DNA of 64,000 bases from Candidatus Thioglobus pontius (GTDB lineage: Bacteria > Pseudomonadota > Gammaproteobacteria > PS1 > Pseudothioglobaceae), in assembly GCA_014384345.1 (NCBI GenBank), contig JACNGB010000049.1, positions 16,742 to 80,741 on the forward strand, in the 5' to 3' direction. Shown in pieces: positions 35,248 through 54,443 of this stretch (its first letter is position 1; each line of letters starts with the position of its first letter). The notes beneath the pieces are model-generated. The model did not search any database. It saw nothing but the letters and a program-made list of their open reading frames with translations, and was not told the origin of the DNA. The position numbers were made by a program, and so were the translations under genes.

Positions 35248-35571
35248 TTAGATACAACCAGTCGGCTTAGGAAGGCCAGCGAAACGACAACCTTGCTTAC
35301 CAGGACCGTAAGGGAATAAAGAGTAAAGGTACTTAGAGTTACCCTTGTCTTTACCCATTCTCTTAGCGACTGCTTTTGTTAATACACGTACTGCTGGTGC
35401 AATTTGGTACTCTTCAAAATACTCACGTAAGAAATTAATAACGTCCCAATGCTCGTCTGTTAACTCAACATCATCGTCTTGAGCCATTTGCTTACAAATG
35501 TCCTCGTTCCAATCTTTAAGGTCTACTAAGAAACCTTCTTCATCTACTTCAGCGCCACAAATTTGTGCCAT
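35248..35571 (-). CDS. dsrC: DsrC, sulfur carrier protein with both C-terminal cysteines
   Basis: C-terminus GKQGCRFAGLPKPTGCI with the two canonical cysteines. Confidence 0.97.
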   Translation of the reverse strand: MAQICGAEVDEEGFLVDLKDWNEDICKQMAQDDDVELTDEHWDVINFLREYFEEYQIAPAVRVLTKAVAKRMGKDKGNSKYLYSLFPYGPGKQGCRFAGLPKPTGCI

Positions 35572-37841: not shown

Positions 37842-39146
37842 TTAAGCGTTAGCTTCGGCTTTATTTTCAAACCACTTAACCGCTTCTTCATCCCAGTCAT
37901 CCATACGAACGTATGACGAAGTACGAGTAGAGTTGATCATATTTGGATCAACATTGATACCGATACCTTCAAGGAAGTTTACTAAGCCAATACGCTCAAT
38001 CATTTCACCAGTTCTTTCGTGCTCTAATGCATTCTCAGCAAAGAAGTCGATTACTTCACCAGCTAAATCTTCGATTGCTTCTCTATCATCTTCAGTTTCC
38101 ATTTTCATGAATGGAACTACTACTGAACCGAATAAGTCACCAATCTTCAACGTACGCTTACCACCCATAATAACCATCACACCTTTATCGTCGCCAGTAG
38201 CTAAGATAGGCTCAACATCACCTTCAGCAATGTAGTTGTGAGTTAATGGAGAAGTAACATTTAAACAATGCATACATTTAACACAGTTCTTGTTGTCAAT
38301 TGACAATGAGTTGTCGTCGTTTAATGTCATACAGCTAGTAGGGCAACGAGAAGTAATGTTGTCAACTACATACTGAGTACCTTTATCTGCAACCATTGCT
38401 TTCCAAAGATCTTGGTTGATTTTAATATCATCTCTCCAAGTACCAATAGTAGCAAAATCAGCACGCTGTACTGAGTTCATACAGTCGTTAGCACAACCTG
38501 AAACCTTAAATTTCATTTTGTATGGTAATGCTGGACGGTGCATGTCGTCAAGGAATGCATTAACAAGAGTTCTTAATACTGCTTGTTCGTTAGTGTTTGA
38601 CATTTCACAACGTGAAGCACCAACACATGACATACCAGTACGTACCGCAGGACCCGCGCCACCCATGTCAAAACCGTAAGCGTTAAATTCGTTAAAGATC
38701 TTTTGCGTCGTTTCTTCAGTTGCACCTTGTAACATAATGTCACCAGATTGACCGTGTAAACCGATCAACCCCGATCCACCATTCTCAGTAAACATGTCAC
38801 ACATATCTCTTAATAGAGTAGATGTGTAGTGCATACCTGCTGGCGGTTGAATACGTAACGTGTGGAACTCACCTGCTGCAGGGAATTTGTAGTCACCGTT
38901 ATCATCTTTTAATTCGTTAAAACGTGGAATTACGCCACCACCGTAACCAATTACACCAACTGTACCACCTTTCCAGTAACCTTTCTTAGTTACGTAAGAT
39001 GTTTCAAGCGTACCTAGTACATCGCGTGCCATGTCAGCACCTTCGTGGGTATCGTTTGCTAATCTTTTAAGACCTGTTACAAACGAAGGCCATGGACCAT
39101 TTTCCAACTCATCAAGGTTGGGTGTGTTATATAGCTCTTTTGCCAT
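37842..39146 (-). CDS. dsrA: Dissimilatory sulfite reductase alpha subunit
   Basis: GLHGQSGDIMLQG, TGMSCVGASRCEMSNTNEQA, KVSGCANDCMNSVQRADFA, CVKCMHCLNV. Confidence 0.98.
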   Translation of the reverse strand: MAKELYNTPNLDELENGPWPSFVTGLKRLANDTHEGADMARDVLGTLETSYVTKKGYWKGGTVGVIGYGGGVIPRFNELKDDNGDYKFPAAGEFHTLRIQPPAGMHYTSTLLRDMCDMFTENGGSGLIGLHGQSGDIMLQGATEETTQKIFNEFNAYGFDMGGAGPAVRTGMSCVGASRCEMSNTNEQAVLRTLVNAFLDDMHRPALPYKMKFKVSGCANDCMNSVQRADFATIGTWRDDIKINQDLWKAMVADKGTQYVVDNITSRCPTSCMTLNDDNSLSIDNKNCVKCMHCLNVTSPLTHNYIAEGDVEPILATGDDKGVMVIMGGKRTLKIGDLFGSVVVPFMKMETEDDREAIEDLAGEVIDFFAENALEHERTGEMIERIGLVNFLEGIGINVDPNMINSTRTSSYVRMDDWDEEAVKWFENKAEANA

Positions 39147-39172
39147 TTTATCTCTCCGATATATTTATATAA

Positions 39173-39279
39173 ATCTTTAAAACCATCTGCTTTAAAGATG
39201 TGAACGGGACAAATTATACTTAAATGCAAGCGAAAACCACCGTTTTATAGTGGTATCACCATCTATCCCTTAGGGGATA
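39173..39279 (-). promoter_or_regulatory. dsrA promoter/leader: palindrome (39263-39279), inverted repeat (39236-39254), -10 TATAAT (39213-39218), leader hairpin (39173-39199)
   Basis: Minus strand TATCCCCTAAGGGATAG-N8-ACCACTATAAAACGGTGGT-N17-TATAAT-N13-ATCTTTAAA-N9-TTTAAAGAT upstream of dsrA; same layout recurs at 50761-50864. Confidence 0.82.
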
Positions 39280-39332
39280 TAAATGAGATTTTTAAGAAAA
39301 AACCGGCTGCTAATGACCGATTTAGATTGATA

Positions 39333-49834: not shown

Positions 49835-50713
49835 TTATTTCTTAATGCCATCAATACGACACCACTCATCTTTTTGAACAACGTGTAAATTTTTAAAAAA
49901 TTCACCATACGTATCAAGAATCATAGGCAATTGATCCGTCATAATGCCTGATAACGCAAGATGTCCGTTCGGCTTGACCAAACCAGCAAAATGTTCACAT
50001 AAGCTAACTAAAGGATTGGCCAAAATATTAGCAATGAGTAAATCTACTGGATCCAGCTTACTTTCATCATCCGTATGCAATACCTTGATTTTATCTTGGC
50101 AATTGTTAGTCTTAATATTATTACTCGTAGCAATAACCGCCTGTGGGTCATTATCAACAGCAATAGCATGCTTGGCGCCAAGCTTAATTCCAGCAATAGC
50201 CAAAATACCCGTACCCGAGCCATAATCAATGACTGTTTGATTTAGGGGCGGGTTTTCATCTAAATATTGCAAACATAAATCTGTAGTTTGGTGAGTGCCC
50301 GTGCCAAATGCCAAACCAGGATCCATGTCAATGATGATTGCGTCTTTTGGCAATTGAGACGAGTCCTCCCAAGAAGGGCAAATCCAAATCCGCTTGCCAA
50401 ACTGCATAGGATGAAAATCCTTTTTACATTCATCCTCCCACACCCTGTCTTTTAATAATTCGAAAGTTGATTGCTCTATTTTGCAAATTTGTTTAAGCAT
50501 TTGCTTGACGTGCATTTGGTCAACTGCCAAATCAAATAAGGCAGTAATAGTAATATCTGGCCATAGTGGGGTTTCACCCACTGGCAGCTCATAAATAGCA
50601 TCATCTTTAGAGTCACTAAACGTGACTGACACACTACCCAGCCCCATTAGTATTTCACTAACAAAATCAGCCTGATCTTCGGTGGTTTTTAAGGTTAATT
50701 GCATCCAATCCAT
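49835..50713 (-). CDS. prmA: Ribosomal protein L11 methyltransferase (start MDWMQLTLKT)
   Basis: DPGLAFGTGTHQTTDLCLQYL, VIDYGSGTGILAIAGIKLGAKHAIAVDNDPQAV. Confidence 0.95.
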   Translation of the reverse strand: MDWMQLTLKTTEDQADFVSEILMGLGSVSVTFSDSKDDAIYELPVGETPLWPDITITALFDLAVDQMHVKQMLKQICKIEQSTFELLKDRVWEDECKKDFHPMQFGKRIWICPSWEDSSQLPKDAIIIDMDPGLAFGTGTHQTTDLCLQYLDENPPLNQTVIDYGSGTGILAIAGIKLGAKHAIAVDNDPQAVIATSNNIKTNNCQDKIKVLHTDDESKLDPVDLLIANILANPLVSLCEHFAGLVKPNGHLALSGIMTDQLPMILDTYGEFFKNLHVVQKDEWCRIDGIKK

Positions 50714-50760
50714 AGCGTGCAGATTATACCTAGGTTCATTATCCAACATTAAGCCCCGTA

Positions 50761-50864
50761 TACCCCCTTAGGGATAGTTCAAAATATCACTATAAAATGG
50801 TGATAAAAACTTAAATTTCAGTATAATTCCCCTGGTTCGTACCTTTAACTTCAAACTTAAAGGT
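50761..50864 (+). promoter_or_regulatory. dsrA-like promoter/leader in front of the 55-aa ORF
   Basis: TACCCCCTTAGGGATAG-N8-ATCACTATAAAATGGTGAT-N17-TATAAT-N13-ACCTTTAA-N8-TTAAAGGT; spacings match the dsrA upstream region. Confidence 0.82.
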
Positions 50865-50886
50865 TTATTAATTATTAGGAGATATC

Positions 50887-51054
50887 ATGGCTAACGGCAT
50901 TACAAAAGGCAACAGACCACCATTACAAGGCAATTTAGACTCATTAAGCAAAGCTAACCCTTTAAATTCTAGAAGCGGCAACGAAACTGTTACTGCAACT
51001 CAAGATTACAAAAAAGGTATGAAGTCTGCTGAAGAGCTAGAAGAGTACAGATAG
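50887..51054 (+). CDS. 55-aa hydrophilic small protein of unknown function (not in ORF track)
   Basis: MANGITKGNRPPLQGNLDSLSKANPLNSRSGNETVTATQDYKKGMKSAEELEEYR*; good RBS (TAGGAGATATC), strong promoter upstream, terminator downstream. Confidence 0.78.
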   Translation: MANGITKGNRPPLQGNLDSLSKANPLNSRSGNETVTATQDYKKGMKSAEELEEYR

Positions 51055-51079
51055 TCAACTAACGACTTACGTAACTCAT

Positions 51080-51105
51080 AAAAAACCCTCGTCAGAGGGT
51101 TTTTT
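51080..51105 (+). terminator. Rho-independent terminator after the 55-aa ORF
   Basis: AAAAAACCCTC-GTCA-GAGGGTTTTTT. Confidence 0.92.
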
Positions 51106-51234
51106 ATTGCCCAGCGCTTTACTATATTGTTTTGCGCAATAAGCATACACCTACAAATAAAATGTGTATTTATAAAACTTGACTTCTATCAATCTTATAT
51201 AATATACCCAATTAAATTACTATGGTATTAAAAA

Positions 51235-51525
51235 ATGGCATTAGATAGAACAGGAAACGGCTACTTAGTAGACCCATCAATTTGGACAGAAGAAATCATG
51301 CATGAAATGGCTTCAGAAGATGAAATTACACTATCAGATTCTCAAGTTGAGCAAATTCGCTCAGCCAGAGAATACTTTGCAGATAACTCATCGGTTCCGC
51401 CAATCAGAACATTTTCTAAATACGTTGGTATTGATAAAAAAATATTATTTAAGGAATGGCTAACCGGCCCGATGAAGCCGATCACGAAGTATGGCGGGAT
51501 GCCACAGCCAACCGGTTGCGTCTAA
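51235..51525 (+). CDS. DsrC/TusE family protein with only the terminal cysteine
   Basis: Aligns to DsrC (GYLVDPSIWTEEIMHEMA; REYFADNSSVPPIRTFSKYV; GGMPQPTGCV); position of the upstream C-terminal Cys is Thr. Confidence 0.9.
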   Translation: MALDRTGNGYLVDPSIWTEEIMHEMASEDEITLSDSQVEQIRSAREYFADNSSVPPIRTFSKYVGIDKKILFKEWLTGPMKPITKYGGMPQPTGCV

Positions 51526-51845: not shown

Positions 51846-54443
51846 TTATAATAGACCATTGACTGAAGTGAGAGCTTCAGTTAGCTTAGACGGATCTGTG
51901 CCACCGCCCTGAGCCATATCTGGCCTACCACCACCTTTGCCACCCACTTGCTGAGCAACATGGTTAAGAATCTTCCCTGCTTGATATTGCTTAGTTAAAT
52001 CTTTAGTTACACCAGCCACTAACGACACCTTGTCACCACTCACTGCGGCCAGCACCACAACGGCAGATCCTAGCTTGTCTTTTAGCTTGTCAGCAATATC
52101 GCGCAGATCTTTGCCGCTCACGCCATCAACCACAGTAGCAAGCAATTTAACCCCATTAACATCTTGCGCTTGATTAACTAAATCATCACCTTGGTTACTG
52201 GCCAACTGCTTTTGAAATGTAGCAATCTGCTTTTCTAATTCTTTTTGCTGTTTAATCAGTTGCGCTACTTTCTCTACGGCTTGCGCATTGCTCGATTTAG
52301 TCATTTGCGCAATTTCACTCAAACTGTCTTCAGTTTGCTTATCAAACTGATAAGCGTCATAGCCGGTCATTGCTTCAATACGACGCACGCCAGCAGCAAT
52401 ACCACCTTCTGAGGTAATTCTAAACAAACCAATATCGCCCAATTGATTAACGTGTGTACCGCCACAAAGCTCCACTGAAAAATCACCCTTGCCCATGCTT
52501 AATACGCGTACCGTATCGCCATATTTTTCACCAAACAGTGCCATGGCACCTTTCTTTTTGGCAGTTTCAATATCGGTTACATCCGTATGAACAATTGAAT
52601 TCCCTAAGATGCGACGGTTAACCATCGCTTCAATCTTATCTAGATCCGCTTTAGCAATCACCTCATCATGAGAGAAATCAAAACGTAATTTATCACCATC
52701 TACCAACGAGCCCTTCTGGGTAACCGTTTCACCCAAAACACCACGAAGCGCAGCATGCAATAAGTGTGTTGCTGAGTGATTTCGAGCGATACGCTTACGC
52801 CTACGCGCATCAACTTTAGCTTCAAGCACAACACCGACTTTAATCACGCCACTTAGTGCAATACCATGATGCTCAAATGCACCTGTTTTTTGTTTTTGCG
52901 TATTGGTAACTTCAAATTCAACACCTTTCGCGCTCAATGTGCCACTGTCGCCCACCTGGCCACCTGACTCGCCATAAAAACTAGATTGCGCCAATACAAT
53001 AATGCCGTGATCGCCCGCTTCAATCGAATCAACCAATTCGCCATTTTTAATCAACGCTTGCACTGATGAGTTATTTTCTAATTGCTCATAGCCTAAAAAT
53101 TCTGTCACCTCACCAACATCAACACCTTTTTGTGTGGTTTTAAAATCACCGGCTGAACGCGCTCTGTCACGTTGTTTGGTCATTTCTGCTTCAAAGCCTG
53201 GCATGTCAATGGTGAGGCTACGCTCACGAGCAACATCAGCCGTTAAATCAACTGGGAAACCGTAAGTATCATAAAGCTTAAACACGGTTTCGCCGTCAAT
53301 TTCACTGCCTGTTAGATCGGCAATTGCAGCTTCTAAAATACCCATACCCTGGTCTAGTGTTTGCGCAAAGCGCTCTTCTTCACGTTTCAAGACTTTTTCA
53401 ACATTCGCTAAAGATTTCTTAAGCTCTGGATAAGCCTCTTTAAACTCTAATGCCAATACCGGCGCCAAACGATAGAAGAACGTTTTCTCAATACCAATTT
53501 TATGACCGTGGCGAATCGCACGACGAATAATACGGCGCAGTACATACCCACGTCCTTCGTTTGATGGAATCACGCCATCAACAATCATAAAGGCCGTTGA
53601 GCGAATATGATCAGCAATCACACGAACTGAAGCGTTATCAGTTTTAATACCCGCCTCTTTAGGGGTTAGCTCAACCACTGCTTTAGTTAGACTGTTAAAG
53701 CCATCGGTATCGTAGTTATTGTTTTCATGTTGTAATACAGCGGCTAAACGCTCAAGTCCCATACCGGTATCCACACAAGGTGCATCAAGTGGTTTTAAAT
53801 AGCCATCTTCTTGTTTATCATACTGAGTAAACACCAAGTTCCAAATTTCAATATAGCGATCACCATCTTCATCCGCGTGTCCTGGCGGACCACCAGCAAT
53901 CTCTTCACCATGATCATAAAAAATTTCACTCGATGGCCCACACGGGCCGGTATCACCCATTTGCCAAAAGTTATCTTTAGCGCCACAACGAGAGATACGA
54001 TTTTTAGGAAAACCAATTTCATTTACCCAAATAGCTTCAGCTTCATCATCTTCTTCAAAGACACTGACCCAAAGTTTTTCCTTAGGCAGGCCAAGCTCTA
54101 CTGTTAAAAATTCCCAGGCATATTGAATAGCTTCACGTTTGAAATAATCACCAAACGAGAAATTGCCCAGCATCTCAAAAAAAGTATGGTGGCGCGCGGT
54201 ATAGCCGACATTTTCAAGATCGTTATGCTTGCCACCAGCACGCACACAACGCTGACAACTGACTGCACGTGTGTATGGGCGCTTTTCTACACCACTAAAC
54301 ACATCCTTAAACGGCACCATTCCAGCATTTACAAATAACAAGGTTTTGTCATTATGCGGAATAAGTGACGAGCTCTTTTCAACGGTATGGCCTTTTGAGG
54401 CGTAAAAATCTAAGAATTTTTGTCTAATTTGTGCAGTTTTCAT
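51846..54443 (-). CDS. alaS: Alanyl-tRNA synthetase
   Basis: [44 protein letters not shown]; 865 aa; C-terminal [15 protein letters not shown]. Confidence 0.98.

Follow-up and report, generated by a model that had tools for sequence, protein, structure and literature searches.

Our analyses identify, on the evidence of sequence comparison, a new family of small proteins that is tied by gene context to dsrC_1, a known and unexplained viral sulfur gene. Its member in Candidatus Thioglobus pontius, a 55-aa protein encoded upstream of dsrC_1 in the window (the whole stretch of 64,000 nucleotides analysed here), is best read, with a probability of about 0.5, as a small, hydrophilic and mostly disordered protein that would act as a dedicated partner of the single-Cys sulfur carrier DsrC_1. 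We regard this role as the likeliest because a weak structure model and variable N-termini are combined with a C-terminal motif that is conserved beside dsrC_1 in hosts and phages. dsrC_1 is among the best-known sulfur genes of ocean viruses, yet it is unexplained and lacks a cysteine that DsrC needs, and a conserved partner encoded with it would offer a concrete handle on the function of DsrC_1 and on its acceptor. The first-pass annotation of this DNA had proposed an accessory or regulatory protein of sulfur oxidation, of which the accessory part is partly supported by a dsrA-type promoter and by the link to a DsrC-family protein, while a regulator survives only as a rival explanation; it had missed the strongest clue, namely the adjacent dsrC_1 and the phage-borne pair of this ORF and dsrC_1. 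The features of the locus are collected in Table 1.

Table 1. Features of the 55-aa gene, its neighbours and the related dsrA promoter (window coordinates)
Feature	Position	Strand	Basis or remark
55-aa small protein gene MANGITKGNRPPLQGNLDSLSKANPLNSRSGNETVTATQDYKKGMKSAEELEEYR	50887..51054	+	12/12 genus genomes, dN/dS ~0.2, 14 phage contigs
RBS AGGAGA	50877..50882	+	directly 5′ of ATG; kept in 12/12 genus genomes
intrinsic terminator of 55-aa gene	51078..51107	+	-17 kcal/mol, z -6.9; present 12/12
prmA, flank of conserved locus	49835..50749	-	synteny
alaS, flank of conserved locus	51846..54443	-	synteny
dsrC_1, 96-aa DsrC/TusE-family protein, single C-terminal Cys	51235..51525	+	PF04358 8.5e-19
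-10 box of separate dsrC_1 promoter TATATAATATA...	51198..51203	+	strongly conserved 5′ of dsrC_1 in genus
upstream partial dyad CCCCCTTAGGGATAG, common with dsrA promoter	50763..50777	+	sequence comparison
dyad TCACTATAAAATGGTGA, operator/activator-like, overlaps -35 position	50787..50803	+	exact core at 2 genome sites
dsrA-side dyad CCACTATAAAACGGTGG	39237-39253		before dsrA; counterpart of TCACTATAAAATGGTGA
-10 box TATAAT	50822..50827	+	position conserved with dsrA
leader hairpin common with dsrA leader	50841..50864	+	compensatory changes
dsrA promoter and leader, parent-like copy	39147..39292	-	sequence comparison
dsrA, first gene of dsr operon, shared promoter type	37842..39146	-	

Although a length of 55 aa is by itself nothing special for an ORF, this one is a real gene and chance is ruled out, because its product occurs at full length in 12/12 Candidatus Thioglobus species genomes (65-98% identity; 94 relatives searched), is under purifying selection (medians over the 12 genomes: dN 0.10, dS 0.55, dN/dS 0.20) and has phage homologues at 58-64% identity. 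No indels separate the 12 genus proteins. Several statements of the first-pass annotation held on closer analysis: in the window the protein starts with ATG and contains neither Cys nor a hydrophobic segment, its strong RBS is conserved throughout the genus, its own strong terminator (a 13-bp stem) recurs as a CCCTC/GAGGG-type hairpin with a T-run in all 12 genomes, and the dN/dS comparison that it had recommended gave the purifying selection just described. The terminator was missed by a generic scanner because its T-tail forms part of the stem. The order prmA, 55-aa ORF, dsrC-like gene, alaS, with the two flanking genes on the minus strand, recurs in the genus wherever contigs are long enough; in L018 and L019 further genes intervene or follow beyond the dsrC-like gene, on its distal side.

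The failure of the first-pass annotation to recognise a family was confirmed, as no matching family was found among the Pfam, NCBIfam and PHROGs profiles and the best match in the PDB was at chance level (E 0.35). Outside the genus, a single weak match, in genus g6, was all that the 94 relatives yielded, and when 369 genomes of the class were searched with a profile, only chance matches came back. With the window protein as the query, tblastn found nothing in 50,697 phage records or 72,556 plasmids; two phage forms of the protein likewise gave nothing credible in the 50,697 phage records, and a literature text search with peptide strings produced no match.

The product of the neighbouring gene belongs to the DsrC/TusE family (PF04358, 68.4 bits against a cut-off of 24.9; TIGR03342, 57.4 against 53.5). 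It falls outside canonical DsrC, having neither the second C-terminal Cys nor the 7-8 residue insertion, whereas in the alignment the canonical DsrC of the window (35248-35571) has the second Cys and a 7-residue insertion. We assign it to dsrC_1 because it lacks both features and shares 81% identity with the DsrC of Lau218 phages; the definition applied (the penultimate Cys alone, absence of the insertion and closeness to the SUP05 phage DsrC) is that given for SUP05 viruses in PMC4164917. It is thus of the same family as the dsrC_1 that SUP05 phages carry (Roux et al. 2014, PMC4164917; Lau218, KJ183191-KJ183193), whereas the 55-aa protein itself is unrelated to DsrC; the available portions of PMC4164917 and PMC8190135 make no mention of a conserved small gene upstream of dsrC_1. 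Single-Cys DsrC-like proteins are treated as TusE-like in PMC8190135. As DsrC_1 shares the TusE-type single cysteine with the TusE/TusBCD relay, the pair may belong to a persulfide relay of a similar kind. To our knowledge, no Tus component corresponds to a 55-aa Cys-free protein. The accessory proteins of the dsr operon, DsrR, DsrS and DsrN, are comparable insofar as the 55-aa gene has a dsr-type promoter in the clade of the window, but the 55-aa protein differs from them in having no Pfam or NCBIfam match, in lying outside the dsr operon and in its narrow distribution.

In the sister genera g2, g4, g6 and g10, prmA and dsrC_1 mostly stand at this place without the small gene, which was therefore either inserted within the genus or lost elsewhere. 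The suggestion that its presence would track dsrAB is not supported in its simple form. dsrA does occur in 12/12 genus genomes, as does the 55-aa ORF, but outside the genus the gene has only weak relatives in g6, and sister genera of the same family lack it while having canonical-dsrC-like matches, on which the sister-genus evidence rests. The g6 relatives (69-79 aa) lie elsewhere in the genome, not adjoining dsrC_1, and have in common with the small protein its N-terminal MFEKPxN...NRPP part in some cases and its C-terminal part in others. Genome G010 codes, at L035:6617-7240, for a second, longer relative (83 aa) directly upstream of a DsrE-like gene. The kinship of these proteins to the 55-aa protein, drawn from short motifs, is tentative.

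The small protein family was also found in 14 IMG/VR phage contigs, as four sequence types, each directly upstream of dsrC_1. A scan with an alignment of the 55-aa protein, made independently of dsrC, recovered eight contigs (seven full-length, at 61-63% identity), in 8/8 of which the ORF abuts or overlaps the dsrC-like start, the overlap being 14 nt in L106 and L108; a single-sequence scan with the 55-aa protein recovered nothing from IMG/VR. Scanning with the DsrC-like protein of the window gave 38 contigs (71-83% identity), and upstream of those dsrC-like genes a small gene was present in six further contigs, as three further types that start with MSNGVTRGNRP... (L149), MTNGEILK... (L115/L125) and MFEEGMNE... 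(L141/L143/L144) and all end in K-S-x-E-x-L...R. These six are ascertained, as they were found by looking next to dsrC, and scans with each further form, which reach close relatives only, revealed no copies away from dsrC_1.

The phage dsrC_1 genes that have a small ORF fall in at least three places in the dsrC_1 tree, in which phage L115 groups with the hosts of the genus, phage L141 with g6, and the host genes of G003 and G005 inside a phage clade (97/97 in the DNA tree; 95/82 in the protein tree). Because of this nesting of hosts and phages, dsrC_1 has probably been exchanged repeatedly between them. At the prmA/alaS locus of G003 and G005 (L168 and L163), the host dsrC_1 allele looks to have been replaced by a phage allele. 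Such exchange is also what would be expected if the small protein were an independent passenger with a job of its own, for example binding another abundant host protein, that merely moves between phages and hosts together with dsrC_1, the two genes forming a mobile cassette. That explanation would fit the related phages L108 and L116, which have the upstream gene in common and differ in the small ORF, present in L108 only, as well as the g6 relatives and the second copy of G010 beside a DsrE-like gene, all away from dsrC_1. Against it stands the position of the phage copies, 14/14 of which, across the four sequence types, directly precede dsrC_1, and we consider it unlikely, though the strongest of the rivals.

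The upstream region of the gene in the window offers a further link to sulfur oxidation. The dsr operon occupies 27-39 kb of the window on the strand opposite to the 55-aa ORF (gene names assigned by eye from translations), and the regions upstream of dsrA and of the ORF are 69% identical over 133 nt (z 16.8 against shuffles), having in common a CCCTWAGGG dyad, the dyad YCACTATAAAAYRGTGR, a -10 box GTATAAT and a leader hairpin. The exact dyad core CACTATAAAAYRGTG occurs at exactly two sites in the 1.25-Mb genome, before dsrA and before the 55-aa ORF, and the CCCCCTTAGGGATAG-type partial dyad is nearly identical 5′ of dsrA in every genome of the genus whose upstream sequence is long enough. The dsrA-like promoter reported by the first-pass annotation is therefore well founded for the window, but it is not universal: membership of the dsr regulon, as defined by the dsrA promoter element, extends to the window and three related genomes (4/12), where promoter and leader are 69-84% identical to those of dsrA in the same genome (z 15-38 in G000, G004, G010 and G011). 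The other eight have the ORF under a different promoter, and in the five of these that allowed scoring it resembles that of dsrA no more than expected by chance (z -0.3 to 1.6).

As only four of the 12 genomes have the dsrA-type promoter, a copy of it was probably captured once, and since the homology runs through the 5′ leader, duplication of a promoter segment is likelier than convergent gain of sites. A six-gene DNA tree allows a single promoter origin (one change, with 0/500 shuffles as low), the branch uniting all four dsrA-type genomes being weak (56/31). The 55-aa gene is, on this comparative evidence, older than its clade-specific dsr promoter, and the captured promoter would be a clear example from nature of how a metabolic regulon gains a gene. 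Between promoter and RBS lies the leader hairpin, seen in the window at dsrA (39165-39205, minus strand) and at the ORF; 5/10 of its pairs carry compensatory changes across dsrA and dsrA-type leaders, and the window copy taken alone is no more stable than shuffles (z 0.2).

Pattern matching was used to look for members of the regulon. A longer pattern, from the dyad through the -10 box, matched 17 times in the 12 genomes and never in controls, the matches lying before dsrA in 11 cases, the 55-aa ORF in four and a phosphoribulokinase-type gene (PF00485; L090 and L091, around 1480-1620) in two Thioglobus genomes, G002 and G009; this last location suggests that sulfur oxidation and carbon fixation share a regulon. 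A scan of IMG/VR for the dyad gave one match, which looks like chance. The sharing of the dyad among dsrA, the 55-aa ORF and, in two genomes, phosphoribulokinase would be compatible with the 55-aa protein being itself a small transcription factor or anti-activator of the dsr regulon that feeds back on the shared promoter. We find this improbable, given that neither a DNA-binding domain nor a confident fold was recognised in the protein, that the gene predates its dsr promoter, and that the gene accompanying it in phages encodes a sulfur carrier and not a regulator.

The 55-aa gene is probably highly expressed, as the first-pass annotation had supposed, because its median dS is as low as that of dsrA (0.55 and 0.68, against 1.34 for dsrC_1, 1.43 for carA, 1.69 for alaS and 1.92 for prmA) and its codon adaptation (0.70; reference set dsrA, dsrB, dsrC and rplS) is the highest among 17 window genes tested. 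Constraint on the sequence at the RNA level could be an alternative cause of the lowered dS. dsrC_1 has no such signature (dS 1.34, CAI 0.53). The earlier description of the gene as monocistronic is consistent with its terminator and with the next gene having a promoter of its own. In phages, where the frames overlap or abut, coupled translation of the small ORF and dsrC_1 is suggested. It could be that translation of this ORF, rather than its product, controls dsrC_1 in phages and that the host copy is a relic, as the overlapping phage frames might indicate; protein-level selection in hosts, despite a terminator between the genes, and the high codon adaptation make this very improbable. Finally, that the locus is not a protein gene at all, but a small RNA or a chance ORF of short length absent from curated family libraries, is excluded by the conservation in 12/12 genomes, a dN/dS of 0.2, the lack of indels, the conserved RBS and the in-frame phage homologues.

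Partnership with DsrC_1 thus remains our preferred reading, and it is favoured by the gene order, constant in the genus wherever contigs allow it to be read, the 14/14 phage copies beside dsrC_1, the spread of these dsrC_1 genes over at least three places of the tree, the high-expression signature and the dsr-type promoter. The AlphaFold model of the 55-aa protein is poor (pLDDT 64, pTM 0.25), with short helices at 17-23, 36-43 and 48-54; N-termini vary across the family, and the C-terminal motif NPxN...YKxxMKSxEELxxLR is common to the 55-aa family and the phage proteins upstream of dsrC_1. In Allochromatium vinosum, DsrEFH donates sulfur to DsrC at its penultimate Cys (PMC3397948), a residue that DsrC_1 retains. 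The C-terminal helical motif might dock on DsrC_1, on a DsrEFH or Tus donor, or on the acceptor served by DsrC_1, and the docked protein would govern how the DsrC_1 persulfide passes between such a donor and the acceptor. The dsr promoter would tie the amount of small protein to the sulfur-oxidation machinery, and by carrying the pair, phages may seize or maintain this sulfur flow during infection.

Several observations count against partnership: the structure model is poor, the weak g6 relatives lie elsewhere in the genome, and in sister genera and many phages, Lau218 among them, no such ORF adjoins dsrC_1, so that DsrC_1 does not seem to need the small protein. Nor is a 1:1 complex implied, since the host pair has separate promoters with a terminator between them and dsrC_1 shows no high-expression signature. 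The broader proposal, that DsrC_1 and a small disordered partner deciding the fate of its persulfide form a two-protein sulfur-carrier module of SUP05-clade bacteria and several phage lineages, the host version being wired to dsr through the captured dsrA promoter and leader, is possible but somewhat less probable than partnership itself. If true, it would help to explain why phages keep a DsrC without the second cysteine.

The phage genes flanking the pair include T4-type gp32, a helicase loader, GroES, the RNR small subunit and the terminase small subunit. In two phages dsrC_1 is followed by a gene (L108:5487-5837, L187:559-972) for a protein of 116-137 aa (MxCHSKWCST...) that contains Cys and a hydrophobic stretch, the L108 copy having no match in Pfam or PHROGs. 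Genes that look porin-like by eye, with no Pfam match, lie just 3′ of dsrC_1 in phage contigs L183 (4362-5237) and L186 (2034-2882), and a tryptophan-halogenase-type gene (PF04820; L108:6115-7563) lies near the small gene and dsrC_1 on a T4-like phage contig.
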